Virus record (IMG/VR): IMGVR_UViG_3300037225_000975
Coordinates: 1-57,076 of that record
Length of the DNA stretch: 57,076 nt
Origin: a virus
Strand: one strand, 5' to 3'
Of this stretch, positions 6,785-37,447 are shown piece after piece. Position 1 is the first letter of the stretch. Each line of letters begins with the position of its first letter. Position numbers and translations under genes: made by a program. Below the pieces are notes generated by a model. The model was not told where the DNA came from and ran no database searches. It saw only the letters and a program-made list of their open reading frames with translations.

Positions 6785-6860
6785 TGGCTGCCAGGGCTGG
6801 AATCGAACCAGCGACCTTCGAGTTAACAGCTCGCTGCTGCTACCGCTGAGCTACCCGGCA
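6785..6860 (-). tRNA. tRNA-Asn (anticodon GTT), CCA encoded
   Basis: The 76-base minus-strand sequence folds as a tRNA. A 7-bp acceptor stem TGCCGGG/CCTGGCA has one G-T pair. The D arm is GCTCAGCGGTAGC. The anticodon stem CGAG/CTCG carries loop CTGTTAA, giving anticodon GTT. The variable region is AGGTC and the T arm GCTGG-TTCGATT-CCAGC. The discriminator is G, as in bacterial tRNA-Asn, and the 3' CCA is encoded. It is the only tRNA I found and sits inside the head operon. Confidence 0.93.
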
Positions 6861-7481: not shown

Positions 7482-9155
7482 CTATGCCGGCGTCGGGCGG
7501 TCTGGGGACGTCGGGATCGTGGAGCCTGGGCCGCCACTCTTGCCGGAGATCTGCTTGGTGCCGGAGCGCGGGTTGGGAGGCGGAAGACCTTCGCCGAGTT
7601 TGGGAGGCTTGCCCTTCTGGCCTGGGAGCATCAGCGCTCCGGAGAGCTTCTGCTCGGCTTCGCGCTCCGTGGCGTCGTCGTCGATGTCGAAGGTTTCTGG
7701 CAGATAACCGCGGCGCTTCGCGGCGTCGAGGAGAGCTCGACGAGATAGGTCGCCGCTGGACCGCATCGCCAGGAGGGTGGTCATGTTGTTGACGATGTTG
7801 AGGCTGATGATGTAGTCCTCGTCGCACTTGACCTTGCCGGTCTTCTGCGCCTCCTCGTCCGAGACGTCGCTCCACTTGTCGACCAGCCGAAGGATCTGGT
7901 TCAGGAAGATCTCGAAATTCATCACGATCGACTGCAGCTCGCTGATCGCCTCCATCCCGTCGAGCGCCTTCGCCGTGGCTGTCGGGTTTCCCGAGTTGGC
8001 CGGCATGAGAAGCTGCAGCCCCAGGATCGCCATCTCCGCCTTGAGATCCTCGAGGTCCTGGCGACCGGCGCTGATGGCGTTGCCCGAGTGCTCGACGAAC
8101 TTGAGGTTCGCCTTCTCGTTGCGCAGCGTCCAAAGACTGTTCGGTCCGATCTCGAGGTTGGACGCTCCCCTGGGGTTGGCGTCCGTGCTTGACTTCGGAT
8201 TGATGCCCGTGGCCACCAGGATCGGGAACCGCGTGACCGACAGAATGTTGCGCTGGTCGGACGCCGACTGGAAGTGGGCGACGTTGACGTGGGCGAGATC
8301 GAGGAGCGGAGGGCGGCTCCGCATGAAACCTTCCTTGTCAGCGTAAAAGGTGACGAGCGGGATCTCGCCGAGGGTGTTGGGACCGGAGCGAGCGATCTCC
8401 CACTTGTCTTTCCGCTTCGGCATCTTCGTCCAGATCTCCCAGCGATCGCGATAGATGACCCTGATGGAGGGCTTCAGGATCTCGCCGAACTCGCCGTCAG
8501 GGACGACCTCGATCTGCATGATTCGCACCTGGGTGAGCACCTCCTTGCCACCGATCGTTTCCGAGCGAGCGCCGATGAGCGCCTCCGGGGCGATGACGAC
8601 GGCGTACGGCTTGCGCGTCGCGTCCTCGAGGGCGGTGTCGTCCTGCTCGCCCGTCGGGAAATCCACCAGCACGTGGCAGATACCCTTGCTCACCCCGCCG
8701 GTGAAGGCGCTGAGGGCGAAAAGATCGAGCGGAGAGCCGGCCCCGTCACAATCTTGGGCGAAATCGCGCAAATGCTGGGGAAAGTCGTCCGGGATCTTGA
8801 GAGGAGATCCGAACGGCTTGCCGACATAGCCCATCACCGTCTTGCGAAAGAAGTTCAACAGAGTCGCCCGCTGCAGGCGGTGGAGCCAGCTCTGATGCGT
8901 CTCCTTCTCGTAGCGCGGCAGGTATCGCTCGCCCGCCATCCGCATCGCCTCGGTGCCGCCCAGCAGCGACTCGACCATCCACCATCTCGCTTTCTGATCG
9001 CGATGGAAAGCGCACTCGTACGCCGGCGAGTCGGAATCCTGCTCCTTGACTTGCTGGTACGGCGTCGACATCGGCTGCATCGGCGGCGGGCGCAGAGCGC
9101 TCGTGTCGTCGATGGCGCCGACGGTTTGCGAGACTGCACCTGAGGGACCGGGCAT
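7482..9155 (-). CDS. portal protein
   Basis: The 557-residue protein is encoded directly after the large terminase, with a 2-base gap, the normal portal position. Early residues (ARWWMVESLLGGTEAMRMAG, YLPRYEKETHQSWLHRLQRA) resemble the entry region of portal proteins of the DUF4055 type. The central part (PLVTFYADKEGFMRSRPPLL, VNVAHFQSASDQRNILSVTR) matches the portal pattern in which a short LDLAHVN helix precedes the stem. The C-terminus is basic and Pro/Gly-rich. It should form the dodecameric DNA channel at the capsid vertex. The family is inferred by pattern and context. Confidence 0.9.
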   Translation of the reverse strand: MPGPSGAVSQTVGAIDDTSALRPPPMQPMSTPYQQVKEQDSDSPAYECAFHRDQKARWWMVESLLGGTEAMRMAGERYLPRYEKETHQSWLHRLQRATLLNFFRKTVMGYVGKPFGSPLKIPDDFPQHLRDFAQDCDGAGSPLDLFALSAFTGGVSKGICHVLVDFPTGEQDDTALEDATRKPYAVVIAPEALIGARSETIGGKEVLTQVRIMQIEVVPDGEFGEILKPSIRVIYRDRWEIWTKMPKRKDKWEIARSGPNTLGEIPLVTFYADKEGFMRSRPPLLDLAHVNVAHFQSASDQRNILSVTRFPILVATGINPKSSTDANPRGASNLEIGPNSLWTLRNEKANLKFVEHSGNAISAGRQDLEDLKAEMAILGLQLLMPANSGNPTATAKALDGMEAISELQSIVMNFEIFLNQILRLVDKWSDVSDEEAQKTGKVKCDEDYIISLNIVNNMTTLLAMRSSGDLSRRALLDAAKRRGYLPETFDIDDDATEREAEQKLSGALMLPGQKGKPPKLGEGLPPPNPRSGTKQISGKSGGPGSTIPTSPDRPTPA

Positions 9156-10806: not shown

Positions 10807-11009
10807 GATCCGATCTCCTGGATGGCGCGCTTACGGAGAAGCATAGCTGCGTCTCGCTCCACCATCGACATCTGGTCGTCGCGGCGTCTCGCTCGCTCCT
10901 GCCTCTCGCGAATGGCTCGCGCAGCGCTGAATCCTCTCGTCACGTCAGCCCAGAATCTCTCGCGCGACCGGCGGCAGCGCTCGTCGACGAAACCGACGAT
11001 GCTGCTCAT
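10803..11009 (-). CDS. small basic helical protein, 68 aa
   Basis: The product is Arg-rich and helical throughout (ERCRRSRERFWADVTRGFSA, IRERQERARRRDDQMSMVER). It overlaps both neighbours by four bases (ATGA type). Location between the TerS-like gene and terL suggests a packaging accessory. Family unknown. Confidence 0.75.
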   Translation of the reverse strand: MSSIVGFVDERCRRSRERFWADVTRGFSAARAIRERQERARRRDDQMSMVERDAAMLLRKRAIQEIGS

Positions 11010-11341
11010 GACTTCTTCTCTCTGCCGTTTGGAGGCAGCATGATCGTGACTCGTGGTCCTGCTTGGAGAGGCTGGCCGTCAGGTCCCTGGAGCGTGGTGA
11101 TGGCCGCTCGTTTCGATTCGCGATAGGGACCGAGCTCCTTCTCGGCGGCGAACCGCATCGATGGCGGCAGGATCTCCATCGCGATCACGCGACCTGGTTC
11201 TCGAATCCAGCGAAAGCGTTTCGCGTCCCATTTTCCTTTGTCGTCGAGTTCTTTCTGAGTCATGAAGCCCAGGCCGACGACGTCGCCTTGAGCGTACATC
11301 TCGAGATTTCGAATCGGATCGTGTTTTTTTCTTGCCGCCAC
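11006..11341 (-). CDS. putative terminase small subunit, 111 aa
   Basis: It is the first gene of the packaging/head block, downstream of the 471-base repeat-rich gap. The C-terminal half (PPSMRFAAEKELGPYRESKR followed by AAITTLQGPDGQPL) resembles the conserved helix of small phage terminase-like proteins, in which an A.KELLPY..PKRAA pattern recurs. The N-terminal part is basic. The frame opens with GTG at 11341, whose ribosome binding site is weak; an ATG at codon 15 is the alternative. The assignment rests on position and a short resemblance, so it is tentative. Confidence 0.5.
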   Translation of the reverse strand: MAARKKHDPIRNLEMYAQGDVVGLGFMTQKELDDKGKWDAKRFRWIREPGRVIAMEILPPSMRFAAEKELGPYRESKRAAITTLQGPDGQPLQAGPRVTIMLPPNGREKKS

Positions 11342-11429
11342 GATCGCGATCTTGCGTCGATGGCTCTGAAATACACGAAAGCCTCACTCTGAGGCCAGAG
11401 ATGAGGGCGGGTCCATTTATGCCGGAGGG

Positions 11430-11507
11430 GCTGAGAATAACTATTTGGAGTTGCAAGTGATTGCTACCGCAACGATTTGCAACTTCCGAATCGGGGTTAT
11501 TCTCACG
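11430..11507. repeat. dyad element A (GGTGAGAATAAC hairpin, ~78 bases)
   Basis: GCTGAGAATAAC at 11430 and its reverse GTTATTCTCACG at 11496-11507 form the outer stem. Inside, GGAGTTGCAA pairs with TTGCAACTTCC with one bulge. The inner sequence GAAGTTGCAA is partly shared with element B. A long stem-loop in RNA or a cruciform/dyad site in DNA is possible. Confidence 0.7.
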
Positions 11508-11674
11508 AAAGGGGGGGTATATAGTATGCATCTCCTTCCTCTCATCCTTCCTCAGCTACTTCCGAAGCAGCTCATTTTCTCATTGACTTCTTAAGATATT
11601 AGCTCTCTAATAACCACACTACAATAGGTACGGATTAGAGATACATGTCATACCCCCCCTTTGGTGAGAATAAC
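11496..11674. repeat. 179-base element with ~38-base inverted ends and G7/C7 runs
   Basis: The left end GTTATTCTCACGAAAGGG continues as GGGGTAT and ATGCATCTC; the right end is its reverse complement with few differences (ATGTATCTC, ATACCCCCCC, TTTGGTGAGAATAAC). The centre is AT-rich and includes CTTAAG (11590-11595). It also holds a sigma70-like pair on the plus strand, TTGACT (11583-11588) with 17 bases to TCTAAT (11606-11611). Confidence 0.7.
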
Positions 11675-11739
11675 TAGCCGGCCGAAGTCGCAACTAGCAC
11701 GCCCGCCATCGCTTACGACTCGGTCTGGTTATTCTCACC
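11663..11739. repeat. dyad element B (GGTGAGAATAAC hairpin, 77 bases)
   Basis: GGTGAGAATAAC (11663-11674) and GTTATTCTCACC (11728-11739) form a perfect 12-bp outer stem. Inside, CCGAAGTCG pairs with CGACTCGG with one bulge. The spacing is the same (77-78 bases) as in element A. Both share the outer stem and the same GAAGTYGCAA-like inner arm. Confidence 0.75.
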
Positions 11740-11812
11740 CCTTCGGACGAAACCCCTCCCCGACCCCTTCCGGCCGCTTTTCGCCCCTCGCGATTCCAAA
11801 TCATCAAGCTCG

Positions 11813-12421
11813 CTATCTCGGAATCGCTGGACCCCATCCGACCACCTCCGCCACCCTGCGAGCCACCGCCTCGATCGATTCCGAGGCGTCGCAGAAAACG
11901 ATCTCGTCCCCGCCCCGACCCACTTCCTGGTCTCGATACGCCTCCCTCACTTTCTTTCCGAGCGAGTCGAACCTATCCGGGACCTCCCCTCCCCTGGCCG
12001 CGATCCTGGCATCCAGCGTCGAGTCGTCAGCTTCCAGGAAGACGACCTGAGACCAGCTCGGCTGACGAGCCCATCCTTCCAGCACCTTGCAGATGTCCGC
12101 CCCCTCGGCCTGGCGCATCGCGATCCTGTAAGCCAGATTCGAGACCCCGCACCGGTCCATCACCACCCGCAGCCCGGTCAGACGCAGGTTCTCCGCTCGC
12201 CGCATGCAGTCCACGTCCACCGCCGCGAAGGCGAGAGCCATCGCCTCCTCTCCCAGCTCGAACGCCGGATCCTTCAGGGGACCCCGGAGCAGCTCGCCAA
12301 GCCGCGTCCCTCCAGGGCATCGCAGGTAGACGGCACCCCACCCGCGTTCCAGCTCCCTGGCCACGCTGGTCTTCCCGCACCCGTCCGGACCTTCCAAGCA
12401 GCAGATCAGCGGATCGGTCAT
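11813..12421 (-). CDS. thymidylate-kinase-like nucleoside monophosphate kinase, 202 aa
   Basis: The P-loop GPDGCGKT lies at residues 11-18. It is followed by CPGGTRLGELLRG (~35-47), which matches the PGGT..GE segment of thymidylate kinases, and VMDRCGVSNLAYR (~87-99), equivalent to their DR..S..AYQ substrate motif. The enzyme should phosphorylate a deoxynucleoside monophosphate. In a phage encoding a dCMP-modifying enzyme it could act on a modified nucleotide, as T4 gp1 does, but that is inference. The start at 12421 overlaps the preceding stop (ATGA). It is the last gene before the non-coding region. Confidence 0.85.
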   Translation of the reverse strand: MTDPLICCLEGPDGCGKTSVARELERGWGAVYLRCPGGTRLGELLRGPLKDPAFELGEEAMALAFAAVDVDCMRRAENLRLTGLRVVMDRCGVSNLAYRIAMRQAEGADICKVLEGWARQPSWSQVVFLEADDSTLDARIAARGGEVPDRFDSLGKKVREAYRDQEVGRGGDEIVFCDASESIEAVARRVAEVVGWGPAIPR

Positions 12422-13209
12422 GCCTTCCCTTTCGTGATCACCCAGCAGCAGTTGGACGCCGCTTCCGGGTATTTTGGAGCTAAGAAATTCGCCAGCACGT
12501 CCCAAGAATAGAACTCGTGCAGCTCGTCGACCAGCGCCCGCTCCGCCGCGCTCATGACTCGCTTCATCGCCTGCGAGGTCATGAAGGTGCCGTGCGCCGA
12601 CCTCACCGCCAGCCCGGCCGCCTCGATCATCTGCTTCAGCTCCACCCACCGATACTCGTGCACGTGGTTCTTCGCCATGTGCTTCTCGTTGTAGACCGGC
12701 GTGCTGAGAAGGAGCACTCCATCCTTCCTCAGCTTCTCGCGGAAAGCCTCGAGCAGCTTGCGACCGTCATCCTTCTTCATGTGCTCGATGACCTCGAAGT
12801 TGACGATCACGTCGAACTGCCCGTCGATCTCGTCGGCGCGGCTCGTGAAATCGAACTCCTGGAGCACCTCGACCCACTTGCACTTGAACGGCTTCACCCG
12901 GTTCATGTCCACGCCCACGTATCTCCCGGGAATGTGGCTCATGGACGGTGCCAGCACTCGCACCAGCGGCAGATCCTGGCCGCACCCGACGTCGAGGACG
13001 CTCATGCCCTTCTTGATGAACCTGGTGGCGAACCCCCATCGAAAGAAATGCGCCGCGTAATCTCGATGCACCTTGTCGCCGTACTGGGCGGCTCGAAGCT
13101 GCGTCTTGTCGAACTTGCGATCGATCACGTCCAGGCGGTGCCGCCTGGGAGGCGGCAGCTCGACCGGCTCGATCGGCGCTGGTTTCGGTTTCTTGATTTT
13201 GACGATCAT
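12418..13209 (-). CDS. class I SAM-dependent methyltransferase, 263 aa
   Basis: After a Lys/Pro-rich N-terminus, the SAM-binding motif I reads MSVLDVGCGQDLPLVRVL (residues ~69-86), followed by GRYVGVDMN (motif II acidic residue) and FDVIVNFEVIEHM (motif IV/V, as in UbiG-type small-molecule and lipid methyltransferases). The C-terminus has LLLSTPVYNEKHM. The target is unknown; a modified base, small molecule or protein are all possible. The start at 13209 overlaps the previous stop as ATGA, and its own stop overlaps the kinase start. Confidence 0.85.
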   Translation of the reverse strand: MIVKIKKPKPAPIEPVELPPPRRHRLDVIDRKFDKTQLRAAQYGDKVHRDYAAHFFRWGFATRFIKKGMSVLDVGCGQDLPLVRVLAPSMSHIPGRYVGVDMNRVKPFKCKWVEVLQEFDFTSRADEIDGQFDVIVNFEVIEHMKKDDGRKLLEAFREKLRKDGVLLLSTPVYNEKHMAKNHVHEYRWVELKQMIEAAGLAVRSAHGTFMTSQAMKRVMSAAERALVDELHEFYSWDVLANFLAPKYPEAASNCCWVITKGKA

Positions 13210-13523
13210 GGCACTGCCTCGTAGGTTGCCGCGAAGATGTCTGGCTTGCACGGATATCGCTCGCCCTTGATGCCGGTGATGACCCAATCGCCCGGGCAGA
13301 CGATGTGTCCACCCTCAAGGGTGTCGATCCAGCCATGTTCCAAGAGGCGCCTGTTGCAGTTCACGCACAGCGCATGTCCCGAAGTGTTCGGGTCATTATA
13401 GCGCCTGACGACCTTGCCCTCTATGAGTACCCAATCTTTCCCCACCATGTCGTCAGGATGGTCTCCGTTCTTCCACCATCGCGTCGCTTCGACTATGACC
13501 GGTTTCTTGCGGAACTTGCTCAT
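13206..13523 (-). CDS. conserved phage protein with PGDWVITG-type motif, 105 aa
   Basis: MSKFRKKPVIVEATRWWKNG opens the protein and GHIVCPGDWVITGIKGERYP with CKPDIFAATYEAVP closes it. This C-terminal pattern is very common in small phage and prophage proteins of unknown function. A middle CVNCNRRLLEHG adds a CxxC. It belongs to the four-base-overlap chain of small genes. Function unknown. Confidence 0.85.
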   Translation of the reverse strand: MSKFRKKPVIVEATRWWKNGDHPDDMVGKDWVLIEGKVVRRYNDPNTSGHALCVNCNRRLLEHGWIDTLEGGHIVCPGDWVITGIKGERYPCKPDIFAATYEAVP

Positions 13524-19188: not shown

Positions 19189-19478
19189 GCGATCTCCATC
19201 ACCACGTCCGTCGACTTCATTCCCTCCATGTCCTTGTCGCTAAGGACGTCGACGATGATCTGCATGCGCCTCTTTCCCGCCACCTTGACGAGCTCTTCTG
19301 ATGAGAAATGCTTCGCCAAGAACTGCGCCAGCGCCAGAGCGCACTTCATCACTCCTTCGCGCTTGGCTCTCTCCTCGCACTCGACCTGGGCTCTCACCGA
19401 CGGGTCGAGCAGATTCACCTTCACGTTCGTCTCGCATCGAGCTGCGAAGCGGATGAGTTTCGCCTTTGTCCTCTTCAT
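19185..19478 (-). CDS. unknown small basic protein, 97 aa
   Basis: The start at 19478 overlaps the upstream enzyme stop (ATGA). The product MKRTKAKLIRFAARCETNVK continues with helical EEQ-type regions (REGVMKCALALAQFLAKHFS) and MQIIVDVLSDKDMEG. Function unknown. Confidence 0.65.
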   Translation of the reverse strand: MKRTKAKLIRFAARCETNVKVNLLDPSVRAQVECEERAKREGVMKCALALAQFLAKHFSSEELVKVAGKRRMQIIVDVLSDKDMEGMKSTDVVMEIA

Positions 19479-20452
19479 GGCGCCACTCCTCTCGCCCATA
19501 GAGGAGCATCCACGACTGCCAGAGGAGCCCCCAGTTTCCTAGCACAGGCGAGGAGCTTCTCGCACCACCAGCCATCATCTGGGTCTTTGACACGCTCCAA
19601 AACTGAATAGACTTCGCTGAAGTCTCCGTTCCTGAATTCATTCTCTCGATCACGCACCCACTCAGGCACTCCTTCCTCAAAAAAGGATTTTGCGCACGCA
19701 ACGGACGGTTCTGGTACCGCGACTGCTAGCTTCAGCATCGCCGGCAGAGCGACGATCTGTGTCGCTTTCTCATAGTTCGAGTCGTAAAGGTGCATGGAAC
19801 CAACGACATGGAGATACTTGCCCAGTCGAAGATCGAGAGCCGCCGCCATCAACGCCTGGATCTGGCAGAAGCAGTGCACGTCATATGGAGTTCCCAACCA
19901 TGCATCGTTCGACCGCATCGACGTCTGGAGATGCAGACGACCATCCCTGGCCAGAAACTGCAGCGTGAGCGTGCATGGCAAATCCTTCCACTCTCCACGC
20001 TCCGCCTCGACCACGTCACCGGAATCGAACAGGGCCACCACCGCTCGACGATCCTCTCGCTTCTTCAGCAAGACGTCCAAAGCGACGCGAAGCGAGGAGC
20101 GGCCTCCTCCCTTCGCCGCGATACCTGGATTGGAACGCATCCGCTTGCCGTAAGCTCCCATGGCCTCGCCATCGTTGCAAAAACCAGCGTACTTACTTGA
20201 ATAGGCGGACATCATCTCGCTGTCTGATTTTCCCATCAGATACCAGAGCAACTCTGCCGACGCATAACCGGCGGACCATTTCCTCCGATCATCGGCGATG
20301 GCACAATACTGAGGGTTCGACAAACCACCGGCCCAACCGACGATCTCTCGACAACCACCGTTGCGGCTCGGCGTCTCTGACCCTTCTGCGAGATCTGCGA
20401 GCAGATCCGACCACATGCAGTCGAGGTTTGAGTGAGTTGCGATCTGGCTCAT
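19475..20452 (-). CDS. thymidylate-synthase-family enzyme, probable dCMP hydroxymethylase
   Basis: Catalytic elements of the family are present: nucleophile in DLPCTLTLQF (Cys160), phosphate-binding MRSNDAWLG (Arg180-Asp183), and HLYDSN (His221, Tyr223). The residue that in thymidylate synthases is the dUMP-reading Asn (PFN) is Asp here (TPYDVH, Asp191). In T4 dCMP hydroxymethylase this position is Asp179, and Asn-to-Asp changes in thymidylate synthase shift preference to dCMP. The likely product is 5-hydroxymethyl-dCMP, or another C5-modified dCMP, from dCMP and methylene-tetrahydrofolate. Thymidylate synthase activity is the alternative. The start at 20452 is chosen because the region upstream overlaps the next gene by 23 bases anyway. 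Confidence 0.85.
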   Translation of the reverse strand: MSQIATHSNLDCMWSDLLADLAEGSETPSRNGGCREIVGWAGGLSNPQYCAIADDRRKWSAGYASAELLWYLMGKSDSEMMSAYSSKYAGFCNDGEAMGAYGKRMRSNPGIAAKGGGRSSLRVALDVLLKKREDRRAVVALFDSGDVVEAERGEWKDLPCTLTLQFLARDGRLHLQTSMRSNDAWLGTPYDVHCFCQIQALMAAALDLRLGKYLHVVGSMHLYDSNYEKATQIVALPAMLKLAVAVPEPSVACAKSFFEEGVPEWVRDRENEFRNGDFSEVYSVLERVKDPDDGWWCEKLLACARKLGAPLAVVDAPLWARGVAP

Positions 20453-20474: not shown

Positions 20475-20960
20475 TCATGAGATGGTGACTCTGACAAGCT
20501 CGACACCGCACATCTTGGCGAGAGATCTGACGATCCACTCACCCCTGACTGTTAATGACGGATATTTCTCGACATCATAAACGACCCGCTTGATGCCGCA
20601 CGCGCAGATTACGTCGCGCATGCAGGCAGGACATGGCAGGTGAGTGCAATACAAGGACGCGTCTGGCAATGACACGCCTGCCAGCATCGCCTTGCGAGTG
20701 GCGTTCTTCTCGGCATGAACCACCAGGTCATACTTGGTTAGAAGATCTTCCATCTCGATCTTTCGGGTCCACCATTCCTCTCGATCTTCCACGCCATGAG
20801 GGAAACCATTGTAACCCAGGAACAGACCGCCGGTCACCGGATCGTGAATGCAGGCTCCAACCTTGCTGGACGGATCTTTCGATCGAGACTGGGCCCAGGC
20901 CGTGGTCGTGAGCATGATGCTCTCGTCCATGCGGAATTTGGATGTGAGTGTCTTGGTCAT
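20475..20960 (-). CDS. dCMP deaminase-like enzyme (zinc cytidine deaminase fold)
   Basis: The start at 20960 overlaps the methyltransferase stop (ATGA). The 161-residue protein has the zinc motifs VHAEKNA (His82, Glu84) and LPCPACMRD (Cys110, Cys113), plus NGFPHG (~51), standard for phage dCMP deaminases. It would turn dCMP into dUMP, so it competes for the substrate of the neighbouring hydroxymethylase-like enzyme or balances dUMP supply. Confidence 0.9.
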   Translation of the reverse strand: MTKTLTSKFRMDESIMLTTTAWAQSRSKDPSSKVGACIHDPVTGGLFLGYNGFPHGVEDREEWWTRKIEMEDLLTKYDLVVHAEKNATRKAMLAGVSLPDASLYCTHLPCPACMRDVICACGIKRVVYDVEKYPSLTVRGEWIVRSLAKMCGVELVRVTIS

Positions 20961-22027
20961 GATAGGAAGTCGCAGATGGTGGATCCGATCGGGGAAGCAA
21001 GTTTCCGATTCGATCGTATCGCCGAGGCGGCCACGCCACCGATCCATCGTGCCGCTGGAGGGAGAACGGCCTTGGCGATCTGGGCGTACTTGTCATTGAC
21101 GCCACCAACGAACTCGTAGTCATGCGGATAACCGCACATCACCTGCTGCTCTTTCACCGTTAGCGGTCTATGGTGTGTCGGGTGGAAGAACTGAGGACCG
21201 CCGGTGATCGTGGGCGACAGCTCGTCCATCTGCAATCTGATGTTGAGAAAGCCAGGCCTGCCAGCCACCATGCCATGCGCGTTCCTCTCGTATTCCTTCC
21301 CAGCGTTCAACCGCTCGAAGGTCTCGTTGAGAGACGTTTCTCCAGGTTTCATGGCTTTGAGGATTCTCAGGTAGTTATCGCTCGGCACGGCGCCTTCCTG
21401 GGACGAACCTGCCGGGATCGAGGCCAAGGCTTCGCGCACCGTGACGATACCTCCTCCAGGAGGTCCCTCGACATCAACCTTCACCTTTGATGCCAGGAAG
21501 AAGAACCGCTTGCGACGCTGCGGCAACCCGCAATCTGCGCCGTTGAACGTGATCAACCAGGCATGATATCCGAGTTTGTTCACCTGCTCGACTCTCTGCT
21601 GGACGAACGCCGCGCCGTTCTTCATGGCGGCGGCGACCGACTCCCAAAGAAAGATTTTGGGGCGTAACTTCTCCAAAAGAGCGAAGAGGCGAACGGTGCA
21701 ATCGGTCCGACCGTCTTTCGACCACCTGGCTTCGTTCCGGTCTTCCTTGTCTCTCACCTTCACGCCGGCTTGAGACCATGACGCGCATGGCGGATTGCCG
21801 TAGAGCAGGTCGAACTGGTCTCTCGCGTAATCGGTAACCGGTCCCCAGTTGCTTTCCGGATAGAGGACGCCCAAGTCGGGCATGTTTTTCTTGGCAGTCT
21901 CCACGCCGAACGGTCCCTCCTCGAGATGGGCGAGCACCTTGAAGTGCTCCCTGATCCCGAGCGTGAACCCGCCAGCGTAGATGTGGCAACCGATGGCGGT
22001 CGGTTTTGGTTTTCTGGTGATGAGCAT
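20957..22027 (-). CDS. cytosine-C5 DNA methyltransferase (Dcm-type)
   Basis: Motif I is YAGGFTLGI (~17-25). Motif IV is NPPCASWSQ with catalytic Cys81. The motif VI position reads WESV (Glu129) instead of the usual ENV. Motif VIII is LPQRRKRFF (~169-177). The target-recognition domain lies in the middle and a C-terminal SP..TGG-like part is present (LSPTITGGPQ). The enzyme flips and methylates cytosine in DNA, possibly as anti-restriction. It shares an operon with dCMP deaminase and the hydroxymethylase-like enzyme, so the target may include modified cytosine. Its stop overlaps the deaminase start. Confidence 0.9.
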   Translation of the reverse strand: MLITRKPKPTAIGCHIYAGGFTLGIREHFKVLAHLEEGPFGVETAKKNMPDLGVLYPESNWGPVTDYARDQFDLLYGNPPCASWSQAGVKVRDKEDRNEARWSKDGRTDCTVRLFALLEKLRPKIFLWESVAAAMKNGAAFVQQRVEQVNKLGYHAWLITFNGADCGLPQRRKRFFFLASKVKVDVEGPPGGGIVTVREALASIPAGSSQEGAVPSDNYLRILKAMKPGETSLNETFERLNAGKEYERNAHGMVAGRPGFLNIRLQMDELSPTITGGPQFFHPTHHRPLTVKEQQVMCGYPHDYEFVGGVNDKYAQIAKAVLPPAARWIGGVAASAIRSNRKLASPIGSTICDFLS

Positions 22028-22028
22028 A

Positions 22029-22421
22029 TCAGTAGCCGAACCAGTCCTTGAGCAGGCCGGAGATGTCCGGTGGCGAGTAGTCAGCTCCCTTGCCCTTGTC
22101 TCCCTGATGAGAGGCGGCGGCCTTGTGCTTGGTCATGTTCGACCTGTGCACCTCCCAAAAAGCCGCGTCGAGAGGCACGTCAAGCTGGGTGGCCGTTCCC
22201 GCGGTCACGTAGAGCAGATCGGCCAGACCGTCGAGCAGCTCTACCTCGTCCAGCTCGTGCATCGCCATCACCACCTCGCCGAGCTCCTCGATCATGAGCT
22301 CTGCCCGGAGATATCTCTGATCCTTGGTGACCTTGAACACCTCCTTCAGATGAGAACTGATGTCCTTCAGATGAGATGCTGCTTTGCAGAGATCGAGTCG
22401 ATGGTTCTTGTCGAACGTCAT
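22029..22421 (-). CDS. MazG-like / dNTP pyrophosphohydrolase, 130 aa
   Basis: The start at 22421 overlaps the primase stop as TGATG; longer in-frame extensions lie inside the primase gene and are probably shadows. AELMIEELGEVVMAMHELDE with VELLDGLADLLYVTAGTATQ matches the EExxE...ExxD metal-binding helices of the all-alpha MazG/HisE nucleotide pyrophosphohydrolases. Such enzymes degrade (d)NTPs to monophosphates; in a phage with modified nucleotides it could remove the canonical one, as T4 gp56 dCTPase does. The substrate is unknown. Confidence 0.8.
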   Translation of the reverse strand: MTFDKNHRLDLCKAASHLKDISSHLKEVFKVTKDQRYLRAELMIEELGEVVMAMHELDEVELLDGLADLLYVTAGTATQLDVPLDAAFWEVHRSNMTKHKAAASHQGDKGKGADYSPPDISGLLKDWFGY

Positions 22422-24622
22422 CAACCTTGCTGGCGGCGGAGCACCAACTTTTTTCTGAAATTCAAGGACGGCCTGTTCGACCCTTCCTCGTTGGGGGATT
22501 CCATTTCTGTTGTTGGCTTGCTCTCTCGTTTCTTCTCCGTCTTCCATGACTGGTCTCCTGATTTTGCGCGCATCCAAAGATCTTGGATTCGCTGGTTGAT
22601 GATGTATTCCACGACCGGTCTGCCGACCTTGCTCGATTTCTTCCTGGGTGTCAAGATGCCGAACAGGGTGAGGTCGTCGAACTTGCGATAGATGGTTGCC
22701 GAGTTGACCTTCATCGCCTCCACTATGGCGCCTCGTTCTGCAGTTCCGCCAAGCTTCATCATCGCCTCGATGATGTCGATGTTGAACCCGTGAGCGGTGT
22801 CCATCGCCACTCTCTCGATGATCCCGTAGACCTCGGCATCCACTGACTTCTTGTCGAGAACGTGCGCGATGGAGAGACCGAGCTTCATGAGCTGCTTGGC
22901 CAGGCGAGTGCCATTCTCCGCGATAGGCCTGTAAACGACCACGTCGTCACGATACTTCTCTCGTTCCACCTGGGCTCTCATGGCTGCCACGAGTTGCACG
23001 AGAGCGGTGAGCCGTTGAGCATAGATTGGAGGCAGATCAGGCAACGTGTCAGGGTCGAGACGCCTGATTAGAAACCTGGAGACCATGAGCTTGGTCTCGG
23101 TCTCCATCTTCTTCTCGATGCCGACCATGCGAATAGCAGACTCGATGATGCTGTCAGCTTGCGCTCCCTCGAGCTTCGATATTTGCAACTTCAAGAACCG
23201 CTCGCCGAGCAGAGCTTGTCTGTTACCATGGATCGCCGATGTCACGCCGGCCAGGAGAGAGAAGTGGCAGTCCAGATACTCCCTGGTGATGCCGTTGCCG
23301 AACGTCTTCTGCACGTAGCCATCGTAGGCGCCGCGAAGAGTCGAGAACACCTCCTCCTGGGCGACGACCGGCATCGAGAGAATCTCGGTGAAATCCTTCG
23401 CCACCAGGGTCTTTCCCTTCAGACGAGGAATCAAGCTTGGATCCTTGGCGGATCCTGCGTCGCCTCTCCATCCAGAGATCAGGCAGTGAGGAGTCACCGA
23501 CGACCTGAACACGGCTCTTTTCGTTTCTGATAGCGCGCTCAGCAGCATCGTCTTGCCTGCTCCGGGAGGTCCGACCAGGTACATCCACACCGGATCACCA
23601 GGAATCTCGTTGGAGCTGATCACCGCCAGCGAGCACATGAGAGCGAGTTCGAGATCGTCGGTCATCACCACGTGCTTCTTGAACGTCTCGACGACTTCCT
23701 GAAACGTGGCCGGTTCGAGCGGCTCTCCGTTGGCATCTATCTCGCGCGGATCCTCCTCGTCGGTTGTTCTCTTGTCCTCGTCATGGTGTCTCGGTTTGTC
23801 GGAGAGCAATCCCATGATCGACTTGAACGTCATCGACGGACCGGCGCTCTTCATGCCGTCGACGATGTGATCTCTGATGTCCCAACCGGTCGGGCGCCCG
23901 ACAGGCCATGAGACATGCTTGACAGCTCTCGCCACTCCTGCGAGATTTCTGATGGCTCGGTCAGTGCCCATGTCGCCGGCGTTGTCGGCATCATAGCACG
24001 TGATGACTTGCTTGTTGCGGAACAGGTCGGCCCAGTGGCTCTTGAACACGGCGGCTCCAGGCACCGCCACCACCACGTCATCATCGACCTCCATCTCCTT
24101 CAGCAACCACATCATCGCGATAGCATCCCATTCGCCCTCGCACAGCCACACCCTGGTTCCCTCAGGAGCCTCCGCGAGCTTGTCTCCCATCCACAGCTGC
24201 ACCTTGCAACCGGCCGTGCTCATCATCATCTTGGTCTCTGGATCGTAACGTCTCACGTCATGGATCACTCCCCTGGGACTGGCGCACGGCACGAGCCAGT
24301 GGAAACCGTCATATCCCAGACCGGCTTCCTTCAAGACGCTGATCGGTAGGTGGCGGTGCTGAGAGAGCTCTGTCCACTGCTTCTTCGTCGCTCGGTCGGA
24401 ATTCATCTTGCAGATGGCGGTTAGGAACGAGATATGGTTCCCGCTTGCTCCGCACACCTTGCAATCCCAGACCGTCTTGTCGACATCGCAAAAGAAGTGC
24501 CTCTCCTTCCCGCACAGAGGACAGTCACCAACCCAGTTTCCAGAGCCGTTGGGAGCTCTCATGGCCGCTCCCCAGAAGTTGAGGGTGCGGATGATGTCCG
24601 GAGATTTCTCGGCTTCGCTCAC
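22421..24622 (-). CDS. primase-helicase (TOPRIM primase plus AAA+ ATPase)
   Basis: The start is GTG at 24622, overlapping the polymerase stop as GTGA; an ATG at 24655 is the alternative. A CHC2-like zinc finger lies at ~34-57 (CPLCGKERHFF, DCKVCGASG). The TOPRIM domain shows VWLCEGEWDAIAM (Glu162) and CYDADNAGD (Asp211, Asp213). After an acidic linker, an AAA+ domain has Walker A VGPPGAGKT (~350-358) and later sensor-type arginines. The C-terminus has a winged-helix-like segment (GGTAERGAIVEAMKVNSATI). It should prime and unwind DNA at the phage fork with the family A polymerase encoded upstream. The 733-residue fused architecture is typical of phages and plasmids. Confidence 0.9.
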   Translation of the reverse strand: MSEAEKSPDIIRTLNFWGAAMRAPNGSGNWVGDCPLCGKERHFFCDVDKTVWDCKVCGASGNHISFLTAICKMNSDRATKKQWTELSQHRHLPISVLKEAGLGYDGFHWLVPCASPRGVIHDVRRYDPETKMMMSTAGCKVQLWMGDKLAEAPEGTRVWLCEGEWDAIAMMWLLKEMEVDDDVVVAVPGAAVFKSHWADLFRNKQVITCYDADNAGDMGTDRAIRNLAGVARAVKHVSWPVGRPTGWDIRDHIVDGMKSAGPSMTFKSIMGLLSDKPRHHDEDKRTTDEEDPREIDANGEPLEPATFQEVVETFKKHVVMTDDLELALMCSLAVISSNEIPGDPVWMYLVGPPGAGKTMLLSALSETKRAVFRSSVTPHCLISGWRGDAGSAKDPSLIPRLKGKTLVAKDFTEILSMPVVAQEEVFSTLRGAYDGYVQKTFGNGITREYLDCHFSLLAGVTSAIHGNRQALLGERFLKLQISKLEGAQADSIIESAIRMVGIEKKMETETKLMVSRFLIRRLDPDTLPDLPPIYAQRLTALVQLVAAMRAQVEREKYRDDVVVYRPIAENGTRLAKQLMKLGLSIAHVLDKKSVDAEVYGIIERVAMDTAHGFNIDIIEAMMKLGGTAERGAIVEAMKVNSATIYRKFDDLTLFGILTPRKKSSKVGRPVVEYIINQRIQDLWMRAKSGDQSWKTEKKRESKPTTEMESPNEEGSNRPSLNFRKKLVLRRQQG

Positions 24623-26724
24623 GCCGTCACCGTCACGTCGGTCGTTTGCGACCATCTCTCAGTCGCTATCTTGAAACCAACCGGGAACGGGATCGGCGAA
24701 CCGAGCTTCATCGCGTCATCTCCCATGATCCTCACCGTATCCTGCTTGAGTTCTTTGCAGTCGATTTCCTTGTCGACCTCGATGATCAGCTCATCGTGGA
24801 TCTGGAGCAAGATCCTAGCCTGATCACGCCACTTGGTTATATAGCACTCGTCGAGACCGATCATCGCGTTCTTCATGACCTCTGCTGCTGTTCCCTGGAC
24901 GAGGTAATTGGTGGCGCGATATTCATAGCCCGGATCGATGCTGTAAACTCTGCCGAATGGATTGACAACGACTCCTTGATGTTTTGCGAGACCGACACTC
25001 TCGCCCATGAACTTGCGCACGCCGGGTAGTCTTTCATCATAATCGGAGATGAATTGTTTGGCTTCTTCCAAAGAAGTGCCAGTCATCTGGGCGATCTTTC
25101 CCGGCCCGCCACCATAGATCTTGCAAAACTGAAGATTTTTCGCGCGCTTGCGACCGATCTTGTATCGTTTCAGATTAGAGAGTTCTTCTTTAGAAAGAGA
25201 CGACTGGTCTTTCTTTGCAGAGATTTTCGCCAGTTTCTTGTCGTACGTGTGTCCCCAGATCAGGTCAGCGACGTTCTGATGGGCGTCTCCTCCAGCTACC
25301 AACGCGTTGATGAGCTCTTTGTCCTTCGCGAGCAAGGCCAGAATCCACACCTCGATTTGCGAGTAATCAGGCACGTAAAATAACGTGCCAGGTCGAGGAA
25401 CGAACACCTCTCTGGGACGATAGGGAACGTCGACTTTCTTCTTGCCTGATTCGTCGCTCGCCACGTTCTGAAGGTTAGGTCTCTCGGCGCTCATGCGCGC
25501 GGTCCTGGTGCCGGCTTGCTTGTAGTTTGGGTGAATGATCTTGCAACCGGTATCTAGTTCGAGCACGGACAGTGCCGCGTATTGCTCCGTGAAGTGCAGC
25601 ATCGTCGAGGCGGCTGAGTGGTGCAGAATGTGCCAGGCCAAAGGGTCGCCCATCACGAGCTTTTCAGAGCCATCAGCCTGATGCTCTCGCTTGACGCCAA
25701 TGTGCTCCAGGAACTCACCATCGCATTTCGGGTTCTGGCCAGTGTCCTGGCACACCAGGCAACCTGACCCCTTGCAATGCTGGCAGGCCACCGGCGCGTT
25801 GCCCTTCTTCTTGTTCTTGGAGTACCTGATCGGCGCGTGCTCTCGCACGCCGAAAAACTCCATCGTCATCTGCTTCGGCGAGGCGACGTTCAGGTCCTTG
25901 CCGCCAGCGAGATCGATGCCTTTCTTCGCTCTGTTGGCGATGGATCGATAGAATCCGGTCAGCTCGTCGTTTCTCTTCGAGTCGATGGCGACGCCGAGGC
26001 ACTCCATGCGCTCCAAGGTGGCCATGAGAGCCATCTCTCGGTCGTAAACTTCCTGGGCATCAGGATGGTTCTTGAAATGCTCGATGTGAGCTGCTCTAAG
26101 AGTCGCCACTCTCACGGCATCCGTGACTCCATACTTCTTCAGTACCTCGTGATCGGCGAGCCAGTAGTCAGCCTTGAGCTCCTCGGCTATGGCCCAACCT
26201 CTCTTCTTAGCCAATCTCCTGGCCGAGATGGTGGACTTCTGCAGATCGGTCTCGTCATCGATCGGAATGTCGAGGTACTTCTTGCACAGCGGCTTGAGAG
26301 CGTACGTTATCTCGTCCGAGGAGATGACCGAGGTACCGATGATGGTGCACAGCCACTCGCCGACCAGCGGCAACCCGACGGCCCTGGTCATGTGGCGATC
26401 GAATGGCGCATTGTGAGCGACTTTCGCGATCTTCTCGTTGACAAGGATCGGCTCCAAGGCCTTTCTCACGTCATCGGTCATGCTCACTTGCCTGGTCTGA
26501 GCACAAACCGGCAATCTAGCCCAAGCTGTTCTCCCATCGGGGTCGCAGAAAGTGAAGAAGAACGGTCGAGCTGGCCAGGTCTGTCTGTCGACGCCACGCT
26601 TTCCCCAGGGATCGAGCCCCGTGGTTTCCGTGTCGTACCCGAGCCAGTCACCTCGCAGAAGATCCAGGCCTTCATGACCTGGCACTCCAACCCACTCCCG
26701 TCTCCTCAGAATGGTTAGGGGCAT
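24619..26724 (-). CDS. family A DNA polymerase with 3'-5' exonuclease and Cys-rich insertion
   Basis: Exonuclease motifs are YDTETTG (Asp31), NAPFD (~105) and YGVTDAV (~198). Polymerase motifs are motif A DYSQIEVW (Asp453), motif B KRAKNLQFCKIYG (Lys528, Phe532, Tyr536) and motif C HDE (642-644), with GTRTARMSAERPNLQN at ~405-420. Residues ~314-334 hold CQHCKGSG and CLVCQDTG, then a further Cys: a DnaJ-like zinc knuckle inserted between exonuclease and palm, unusual for this family. Motif A has Trp where SQIELR polymerases have Arg. It should be the replicative polymerase. The stop overlaps the primase start. Confidence 0.95.
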   Translation of the reverse strand: MPLTILRRREWVGVPGHEGLDLLRGDWLGYDTETTGLDPWGKRGVDRQTWPARPFFFTFCDPDGRTAWARLPVCAQTRQVSMTDDVRKALEPILVNEKIAKVAHNAPFDRHMTRAVGLPLVGEWLCTIIGTSVISSDEITYALKPLCKKYLDIPIDDETDLQKSTISARRLAKKRGWAIAEELKADYWLADHEVLKKYGVTDAVRVATLRAAHIEHFKNHPDAQEVYDREMALMATLERMECLGVAIDSKRNDELTGFYRSIANRAKKGIDLAGGKDLNVASPKQMTMEFFGVREHAPIRYSKNKKKGNAPVACQHCKGSGCLVCQDTGQNPKCDGEFLEHIGVKREHQADGSEKLVMGDPLAWHILHHSAASTMLHFTEQYAALSVLELDTGCKIIHPNYKQAGTRTARMSAERPNLQNVASDESGKKKVDVPYRPREVFVPRPGTLFYVPDYSQIEVWILALLAKDKELINALVAGGDAHQNVADLIWGHTYDKKLAKISAKKDQSSLSKEELSNLKRYKIGRKRAKNLQFCKIYGGGPGKIAQMTGTSLEEAKQFISDYDERLPGVRKFMGESVGLAKHQGVVVNPFGRVYSIDPGYEYRATNYLVQGTAAEVMKNAMIGLDECYITKWRDQARILLQIHDELIIEVDKEIDCKELKQDTVRIMGDDAMKLGSPIPFPVGFKIATERWSQTTDVTVTA

Positions 26725-36030: not shown

Positions 36031-36648
36031 ATGCGTCTCGCCATCGAGCTCAAGCTCGCCAACCCGACCACCTGTCAGGCCCATGTCGGCATCCTCGAAG
36101 ACACGATGGTCTTTCCGGTGATCGTCGCCTTCACGAAGGACAAGACCTCCAAGTGGCACTTCGAGTCCATCGGCATCGACATCGGCAAGGGGAATCCCCA
36201 CCCCGACGTGCTGCTGGAGATCGCTGCCCAAGTCTTCAAGGAGCTCGCCAAGCACGATCCCCTCACCTTGACTCCTCGAGAACTGCTGTTCCGATCCGGC
36301 AAGTCGCTCAGCCGCCAAGTGTGCTTTGACCCGATCCAGAAGAAGCATGTCATGACCCGTACCCTGGAGGGTCGCGAGGCAGTGTGGTGGGCCGTGACCG
36401 GCAAGGGCAAGCACCTTCATGCCGATGCGAGCGTCGACAATGCCGACGGCGAGAAGCAGGCCAAGATCTTCCTCAAGGCCCAGGTGGCCGAGCTGATGGA
36501 GGCCCACCCGAACGAGATCAAGAATCTCGGCGAATGGTTTGCTGGCGGTTGCAAGGTCGAGCGCGAGGATGCCGGCGCCTCGGACTACGTCAAGCTGGAC
36601 GACATCGAGCCGCTGCCGATCACCGCGACCAAGGCCGAGAAGGCGTGA
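36031..36648 (+). CDS. unknown protein, 205 aa
   Basis: CCAGGAG precedes ATG at 36031. The protein has an N-terminal beta sheet (RLAIELKLANPTTCQAHVGI), SIGIDIGKGNPHPDVLLEIA, and a C-terminal acidic tail. The AQVFKELAKHDPLTLTPREL helix and LGEWFAGGCKVEREDAG are distinctive, but no family is recognised. It is coupled to the next gene by a GTGA overlap. Confidence 0.7.
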   Translation: MRLAIELKLANPTTCQAHVGILEDTMVFPVIVAFTKDKTSKWHFESIGIDIGKGNPHPDVLLEIAAQVFKELAKHDPLTLTPRELLFRSGKSLSRQVCFDPIQKKHVMTRTLEGREAVWWAVTGKGKHLHADASVDNADGEKQAKIFLKAQVAELMEAHPNEIKNLGEWFAGGCKVEREDAGASDYVKLDDIEPLPITATKAEKA

Positions 36649-36926
36649 AGCTAGTCATTCGGAAGAAGGGGGAGGCGGCGAGAGCCGTCTCCCTCGAATC
36701 CTTGGCAACGACCGAGCTCGAGTCGTCAGGTCAGGCCGGGATCAGTCCCAGGGAGTTTCATCGACGTCATCCCGGTCAAGATCTGATCCATCACGTGAAA
36801 GCTTTGGCTGCCGCCGCGAAGAAGCTCAGAGCCAAAGCATCCTGGTCGCCCATCAGAGGCGATCAGGGTGCCGCCCAGGAAGCTCGATACCACATGCACG
36901 GCATCGAGCCGGCGAAGGAGGACTGA
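36645..36926 (+). CDS. unknown basic protein, 93 aa
   Basis: A GTG start at 36645 overlaps the previous stop (GTGA) and its own TGA overlaps the next ATG (TGATG). The product is basic and helical (VKLVIRKKGEAARAVSLESL, HVKALAAAAKKLRAKASWSP). DNA binding or association with the next (glycosylase-like) protein is plausible, not shown. Confidence 0.6.
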   Translation: MKLVIRKKGEAARAVSLESLATTELESSGQAGISPREFHRRHPGQDLIHHVKALAAAAKKLRAKASWSPIRGDQGAAQEARYHMHGIEPAKED

Positions 36927-37447
36927 TGCGAGACTTCAAGTTCGACGGATCGCGGTTCGCCGGGGTCACGACCGCTGACTTCAATCATGGAATAGGACCC
37001 AGGCGCCCGATGATCATCGGCCAGGCACCGGCTCGATCTGGAGGACCTCCCATCACCGGTCGATGCGGCGAGAAGCTCGCCGACCTGCTCGGTATCTCGA
37101 TGGAGAAGTTCCTGGAGACGTTCGTTCGAGGCAACCTGATCCAGGAGTGGCCTGGCAAGTCAGGTCGAGGCGATGAGTTCCCTCGATCGTTGGGAATCAT
37201 GGCGGCGTTTCAGATCATGAGCAGTGGCGCCTTGAAAGATCGCCGGATCGTTCTCCTGGGTCGCGAGGTGGCGAGATGTTTTCGCATCACGCCGGACAAA
37301 GCTGACTACCTGGACAAGGTGGATCTGGTTGGCGGTCGAGCTCTTCTGCTTCCTCACCCATCAGGCGTCTCGAGATGGTGGAATTGTTCTCGACGATCCA
37401 CCGCTGCAAAGAGAGCTCTCCGGGCATTCCTGGCTGAGTACTTGTGA
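36926..37447 (+). CDS. uracil-DNA-glycosylase-fold protein, 173 aa
   Basis: MIIGQAPARSGGPPITGR (~28-45) matches the N-terminal loop of the UDG superfamily (G.APG..E/G). DRRIVLLGREVARCF forms the central strand and LLPHPSGVSRWWN (~143-155) is the C-terminal HPS motif region with the DNA-intercalating loop. The classical Asp/Asn activator after GQAP is not obvious; the position reads Ala/Arg. Possible roles: removal of uracil from phage DNA (dCMP deaminase raises dUMP), inhibition of host UDG, or modified-base handling. Coupled to the preceding gene. Confidence 0.8.
   Translation: MRDFKFDGSRFAGVTTADFNHGIGPRRPMIIGQAPARSGGPPITGRCGEKLADLLGISMEKFLETFVRGNLIQEWPGKSGRGDEFPRSLGIMAAFQIMSSGALKDRRIVLLGREVARCFRITPDKADYLDKVDLVGGRALLLPHPSGVSRWWNCSRRSTAAKRALRAFLAEYL

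Follow-up and report, generated by a model that had tools for sequence, protein, structure and literature searches.

A predicted dCMP hydroxymethylase in a phage unlike T4 and its association with a divergent C5-methyltransferase family

Within the thymidylate synthase (TS) superfamily, Asp at the position of TS Asn177 (191 in the numbering used here) marks enzymes that act on cytosine substrates, according to three reports (PMC8670742, PMC6400193, PMC5175136). Among the described members, T4 gp42 carries this residue as Asp179, and the CMP hydroxymethylase MilA of Streptomyces rimofaciens has in addition a Lys and an Ala that favour CMP (PMC5175136). The Mosigvirus enzyme, also a TS-superfamily member, has been named 5-hydroxy-dCMP synthase (PMC13390438). 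The cytosine of Xp12 DNA is all 5-methylcytosine (5mC), a state only suggested for its relative AXL1 by the authors of that work (PMC9206674), and phage M6 carries thymidine derived from 5hmdU (PMC6449724). On the cytosine-modified contigs of the MetaGPA study, TS position 177 is mostly Asp, and TS domains are found together with PRA-PH and dCMP/MafB19 deaminase domains, in many cases specifically on such contigs (PMC8670742). The DNA of Stenotrophomonas phage AXL3 was cut by 2 of 37 restriction enzymes, both with A/T-only sites; its authors interpret its TS cassette as thymidylate synthesis and report a separate ThyX-type protein, gp50 (PMC7504290).

The stretch analysed here, termed the window, comprises the 57,076 nucleotides of IMG/VR virus record IMGVR_UViG_3300037225_000975. 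The following genes enter the comparison:

11813–12649, minus strand: thymidylate-kinase-like (TMK-like) P-loop kinase, candidate hm-dCMP kinase, internal Met start likely (PF02223, 1.2e-13)
12418–13287, minus strand: class I SAM methyltransferase, candidate accessory protein (PF13489, 1.2e-18)
19475–20452, minus strand: predicted TS-superfamily dCMP 5-hydroxymethylase, 325 aa (PF00303, E = 1.5e-21)
20475–21047, minus strand: dCMP deaminase with HAE and PCxxC motifs (PF00383, 8.6e-16; MafB19-deam, 4.3e-08; phrog_174, 1.9e-34)
20957–22027, minus strand: divergent protein of C5-methyltransferase (C5-MTase) fold, "ESV" family (PF00145, 1.2e-27)
22029–22577, minus strand: PRA-PH/MazG-like nucleotide pyrophosphohydrolase with an uncertain start codon, putatively a dCTP pyrophosphatase (PF01503, 1.2e-13; phrog_671, 3.2e-25)
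22421–24655, minus strand: Toprim primase/helicase-like protein, in a neighbourhood of conserved gene order (PF13155, 1e-08)
24619–26724, minus strand: family A DNA polymerase (PF00476, 5.1e-57)

The initial annotation had grouped the TS homologue with four genes. The dCMP deaminase, the MazG-like pyrophosphohydrolase and the C5-MTase homologue indeed adjoin it, whereas the thymidylate-kinase-like gene, like that of the class I SAM methyltransferase, lies about 7 kb away. The neighbouring domains include PF01503, PF00383 and PF14437, which are reported to co-occur with TS (PMC8670742). The deaminase and the pyrophosphohydrolase are neighbours reported with such enzymes on cytosine-modified contigs, and, with the residue and fold evidence given below, the locus is best described as a dCMP hydroxymethylase cassette of a known kind. 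It differs from the MetaGPA contigs in that their carbamoyltransferase was not found (searches of the record for carbamoyltransferase and ThyX gave no match) and in its C5-MTase partner, which the accessible text of PMC8670742 does not name. The genome type is likewise different from that of T4, as initially proposed, with family A polymerase, Terminase_6 and DUF4055 genes. A megablast search of 14–38 kb against phages returned no match.

Phage AXL3 offers a close parallel in gene content, in that a related SAM methyltransferase accompanies its pyrophosphohydrolase, TMK-like kinase, Asp-type TS and dCMP deaminase, although no ESV C5-MTase was detected in the AXL3 stretch examined. Its TS (gp28, locus L006) is of the Asp type, and the published dTMP-pathway reading is probably wrong. 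Relatives of the window's class I SAM methyltransferase also stand beside the TS cassette in MW202510, MW202621 and several viral loci, as in AXL3 (loci L006, L008, L009, L043, L089 and L092). This conserved protein could be the enzyme that methylates the hydroxymethyl group. Elsewhere, the window encodes a UDG-superfamily-like protein (36539–37447, plus strand; PF03167 below cut-off), which has relatives in two phages, the related MW202657 and M6 (L002, L005), and a single tRNA-Asn gene (6785–6860, minus strand).

The TS homologue occupies one open frame on the minus strand, while the plus-strand reading of the same interval is interrupted by stops. Its ATG lies at 20452 with AGGAG just upstream, and arithmetic from this ATG places the codon of Asp191 at 19880–19882 and that of Cys160 at 19973–19975. 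Alignment with 14 phage TS homologues confirmed the earlier assignment of Asp191, within TPYDVH, to the base-recognition site, where it replaces TS Asn177. T4 gp42 has Asp in this column, and SPO1 gp29, M6 gp58, LuckyBarnes, Montesquieu and Colly_1 have Asn. C160, R180, D183, H221 and Y223 were all found where the initial annotation had put them, and with E67 (equivalent to Glu60) the catalytic set C160, E67, H221 and Y223 is present. The equivalent of T4 Asp145, three residues ahead of the Cys, is D157, a position held by Asn in AXL1 and Glu in RB69. Compared with T4 gp42, the protein belongs to another TS sublineage (P-Y-D at the Asp, R-N-D in T4) and has G99 in place of T4 Ser94. This mismatch was treated as non-defining because the T4 S94A mutant retained about 25% activity (PMC6400193) and Gly occupies this position in the dUMP-type M6 gp58 too.

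The protein has the TS fold and matches PF00303. Its AlphaFold model (pLDDT 90.1) has MilA as its nearest PDB structure, with Z of 34.0–34.3 over 297–301 residues at a low identity of 26–27%, whereas other TS structures reach Z ≤23.3 among the matches listed. Both Asp residues and the Thr after the Cys are shared with MilA. In contrast, the window protein aligns Arg135 and Ser181, of deoxynucleotide type, with the Lys and Ala at the sugar/phosphate site of MilA, and these two residues argue for dCMP over CMP as the probable substrate. A single-sequence scan of IMG/VR with this protein (P0002) found no relative, an alignment-based search being needed; the latter recovered 80 related viral loci with an Asp-type TS. 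The Arg/Ser pair at 135/181 occurs in 79 of them, and the residues D/T/D/G/D/Y at positions 157/161/183/187/191/223 in all 80 (80/80), which is why this set is not attributed to chance.

These six positions, in window numbering, form a code that separates the described chemistries. The window protein is identical to T4 gp42 at all six, including the pairs Asp191/Asp179 and Asp157/Asp145. The patterns are N/P/D/G/D/Y in AXL1 (Xp12-type) and E/T/N/V/D/F in RB69 ORF048, each the single representative of its type (methylase and 5-hydroxylase, respectively), with 5mC in AXL1 inferred only from relatedness to Xp12. RB69 ORF048 is near-identical to a chain of PDB 9iqc, whose title describes a riboflavin-dependent monooxygenase with dCMP and FAD. 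SPO1 gp29, annotated as a dUMP hydroxymethylase, and M6 gp58 share D/N/D/G/N/Y. Among loci retrieved with the Asn-type alignment A2, 80/80 have D/N/N at 157/161/191, although this control set is redundant and mostly M6-like, and many of the loci analysed are short. Asp alone as proof of a dCMP hydroxymethylase was rejected, given that the AXL1 TS and the RB69 5-hydroxy-dCMP synthase have it too; the residue is common to at least three phage chemistries and is thus ambiguous by itself.

Since the six-position code equals that of T4, R135 and S181 are present, no DHFR was detected and the fold is nearest MilA, the window gene very probably encodes a folate-dependent dCMP 5-hydroxymethylase. The initial annotation had already pointed to a dCMP hydroxymethylase, a reading that now draws support from positions 157, 161, 183, 187 and 223 as well. 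One competing view, that of an Xp12-type dCMP methylase in which Asp selects dCMP and a folate hydride completes the methyl group, would yield 5mC DNA and need DHFR. Asp191 in AXL1 is consistent with it, as is the report that Asn-to-Asp changes in TS yield 5-methyl-dCMP (PMC8670742). Nevertheless, the N157/P161 pattern of this type, known from AXL1 alone, contrasts with D157/T161 in the window, and the fold lies nearest a hydroxymethylase. The AXL1 DHFR gene is two genes from its TS, whereas a search of this record for DHFR gave no match, an absence that proves little in a linear, possibly incomplete record. Taken together, a methylase appears improbable.

Even less probable is an enzyme acting on dUMP, either a TS or a dUMP hydroxymethylase, with the deaminase supplying its substrate. 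The adjoining dCMP deaminase would suit such a role, and the dUMP-type M6 also has one annotated, but dUMP types carry N191 and N161, as the uniform D/N/N pattern of the Asn-type loci illustrates. The least probable of these readings is a flavin-dependent 5-hydroxy-dCMP synthase of RB69 type, making 5-hydroxycytosine for glycosylation. Such synthases share the superfamily, and RB69 ORF048 has the equivalents of Asp191 and Thr161; however, its E157/N183/V187/F223 stands against D/D/G/Y in the window, which matches folate enzymes, and no sugar-synthesis cluster was seen in the scanned parts of the record.

For the preferred hydroxymethylase, the family, residues, fold and neighbourhood are direct observations, and from known families we infer the chemistry and the substrate of each partner. 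Cys160 would attack C6 of dCMP, Asp191 would recognise and protonate the cytosine ring, methylene-tetrahydrofolate would donate the carbon, and water would complete the hydroxymethyl group. The pyrophosphohydrolase would deplete dCTP and yield dCMP, the TMK-like kinase would phosphorylate hm-dCMP on its way to hm-dCTP, and 5hmC-containing, restriction-resistant DNA would be made by the phage family A polymerase. Cytosine-modified virion DNA is the best reading of this gene set, as judged from sequence.

With C5 already substituted, a cytosine C5-methylase would seem to have no purpose, and for this reason the neighbouring C5-MTase homologue was examined further. The fold bears out its initial label as a C5 methyltransferase, but with motifs I, VI and X altered it departs from the ordinary type. 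The model (pLDDT 89.5) matches DNMT1 (Z 30.0), the HaeIII MTase (28.6) and the HhaI MTase (26.8). With M.HaeIII, M.HhaI and DNMT1 it shares the fold and the catalytic Cys, Glu and Arg; unlike them, it has a shortened motif I loop, ESV for ENV in motif VI and Lys for GN in motif X. In the window protein, C81 and E129 are kept, and an AGG loop, ESV and AKA stand in place of the canonical FxGxGG, ENV and GN. Motifs I and X of C5-MTases bind SAM.

These changes characterise a whole family. Sixty ESV-family members were compared with 72 canonical viral C5-MTases, a set selected by the letters GGPPCQGF, so that motif IV is not comparable and more prophages may be included. The catalytic Cys, the motif VI Glu and both motif VIII Arg residues are conserved in 60/60 ESV members. 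The canonical motif I Gly (71/72) is Phe or Tyr in 57/60, with FAGGF replacing FxGxGGF and the loop shortened; the motif VI Asn (71/72) has become Ser in 57/60; and motif X GN (56/72 canonical, by pattern) is of Lys/Arg type in 52/60. The family forms one clade, which unites 63 of 64 labelled members and includes no canonical protein (split support 0.83); the exception, L237, is a canonical ENV protein.

Unlike canonical C5 DNA methyltransferases, the ESV protein is linked to the Asp-type TS. A profile of the window protein matched within 10 kb in 14/80 Asp-type TS loci and in 0/80 Asn-type loci. A family search seeded with eight TS-linked proteins retrieved 61 viral loci. In 39 of these a TS lies within the locus stretch, with D/T/D at 157/161/191 in 37, D/H/D in one and D/N/D in one; for the remaining 22 the whole contig was searched, and 13 proved to carry a TS, always with the full Asp code. 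An Asp-type TS thus occurs on 52/61 contigs with an ESV-family profile match. The nine contigs lacking it are L182, L204, L205, L229–L232, L236 and L237, seven of them shorter than 42 kb. Because the profile had been seeded from TS-linked loci, the linkage was recounted without the 7 seed contigs (45/54) and by clusters at 70% identity with seed clusters excluded (31/35), and named phages were checked. By comparison, no TS was found within the locus stretch of 80 canonical C5-MTase loci, nor anywhere on 30 of their contigs (0/30), mostly those extending beyond the stretch.

Ten named phage genomes were picked from 110 matched records. Micrococcus phage Kurnik, Gordonia phages GodonK and Sixama, and DSL-LC01 have an altered motif VI (ESV in three, ECV in one) with Lys in motif X, and each also has a TS gene bearing the full Asp code (4/4). 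The six others, including Flavobacterium and Streptomyces phages, have ENV and no TS (0/6; Fisher p = 0.005). Around the Asp, the TS of Kurnik resembles that of T4, in contrast to the MilA-like sequence of most others; the pairing therefore spans more than one TS lineage.

Retained catalytic residues, changed cofactor motifs and the near-exclusive company of a dCMP hydroxymethylase together suggest that the ESV enzyme handles 5hmC in DNA. Most likely, its role belongs to this pathway and falls close to or after the incorporation of 5hmC, where it may act on 5hmC instead of making 5mC and so finish or edit the modified base. Canonical C5-MTases act weakly on 5hmC in vitro. In the ESV protein, the Cys would add to C6 of 5hmC in DNA beside a remodelled cofactor pocket. 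A writer would then exchange the hydroxyl for another group, in a cytosine version of the DNA-kinase route known for 5hmU, and an eraser would release formaldehyde and restore C at chosen sites. That the family is a C5-methyltransferase turned 5hmC-acting DNA enzyme, whether writer or eraser, remains a tentative and rather doubtful proposal drawn from motif and linkage patterns.

The chief competing explanation for the linkage is that these phages share ancestry. Under this explanation, the ESV protein would be an ordinary SAM-dependent C5-methylase, acting on host DNA or on phage cytosines left unmodified or not yet modified, and its motif changes would be lineage noise. The conserved fold and catalytic Cys, Glu and Arg fit this account, to which we give a little less than an even chance, and the single clade makes common descent possible. 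Conversely, the linkage persists across differing gene order and with both MilA-like and T4-like TS, three motifs change together, and the canonical C5-MTase contigs lack TS altogether (0/30). In the openly accessible literature, as judged by title and abstract, no description of an ESV-type C5-MTase paired with a dCMP hydroxymethylase was found.

The hydroxymethylase finding itself is of a known kind and adds a member to the known but little-characterised cytosine-modifying phages outside the T4 lineage. What is added is the residue code separating Asp-type chemistries, a quick predictor of the modified nucleotide made by a phage TS homologue, and the linked ESV family. The latter weighs more, as it raises the question of whether a C5-MTase-derived enzyme acts on 5hmC in nature; if so, it would define a new class among the enzymes that hypermodify or edit DNA bases, one that is paired with dCMP hydroxymethylase. 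Kurnik, GodonK and Sixama carry both genes, and their virion DNA is therefore directly measurable.

Other modification genes accompany the Asp-type TS elsewhere. Searches of this record for HMUDK and Tet_JBP gave no match, but the control genomes gave none either, which makes these two negative results weak. Homologues of the 5-hmdU DNA kinase HMUDK (PF18723) lie near the Asp-type TS in 9/80 loci (L018, L019, L020, L022, L023 at 10974–12320 with a Pfam match of 8.1e-39, L024, L026, L039 and L062), a hint that cytosine hypermodification may proceed via phosphorylated 5hmC. The idea that the ESV protein and HMUDK are mutually exclusive alternatives was not supported in the Asp-type set (p = 0.51), in which one of 80 loci has both, 13 the C5-MTase only, 8 HMUDK only and 58 neither; HMUDK occurs in only 1/60 loci of the ESV set. 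TET-associated glycosyltransferase homologues (PF20691) are found near the Asp-type TS in 8/80 loci (L018–L020, L022, L023, L024 at 8002–8877, L036 and L062), which makes glycosylation of 5hmC probable in some of these phages. Finally, motif VI is altered further, to WETG, in C5-MTase relatives that lie near an Asp-type TS in L002 (27964–29115) and L028 (14566–15828).
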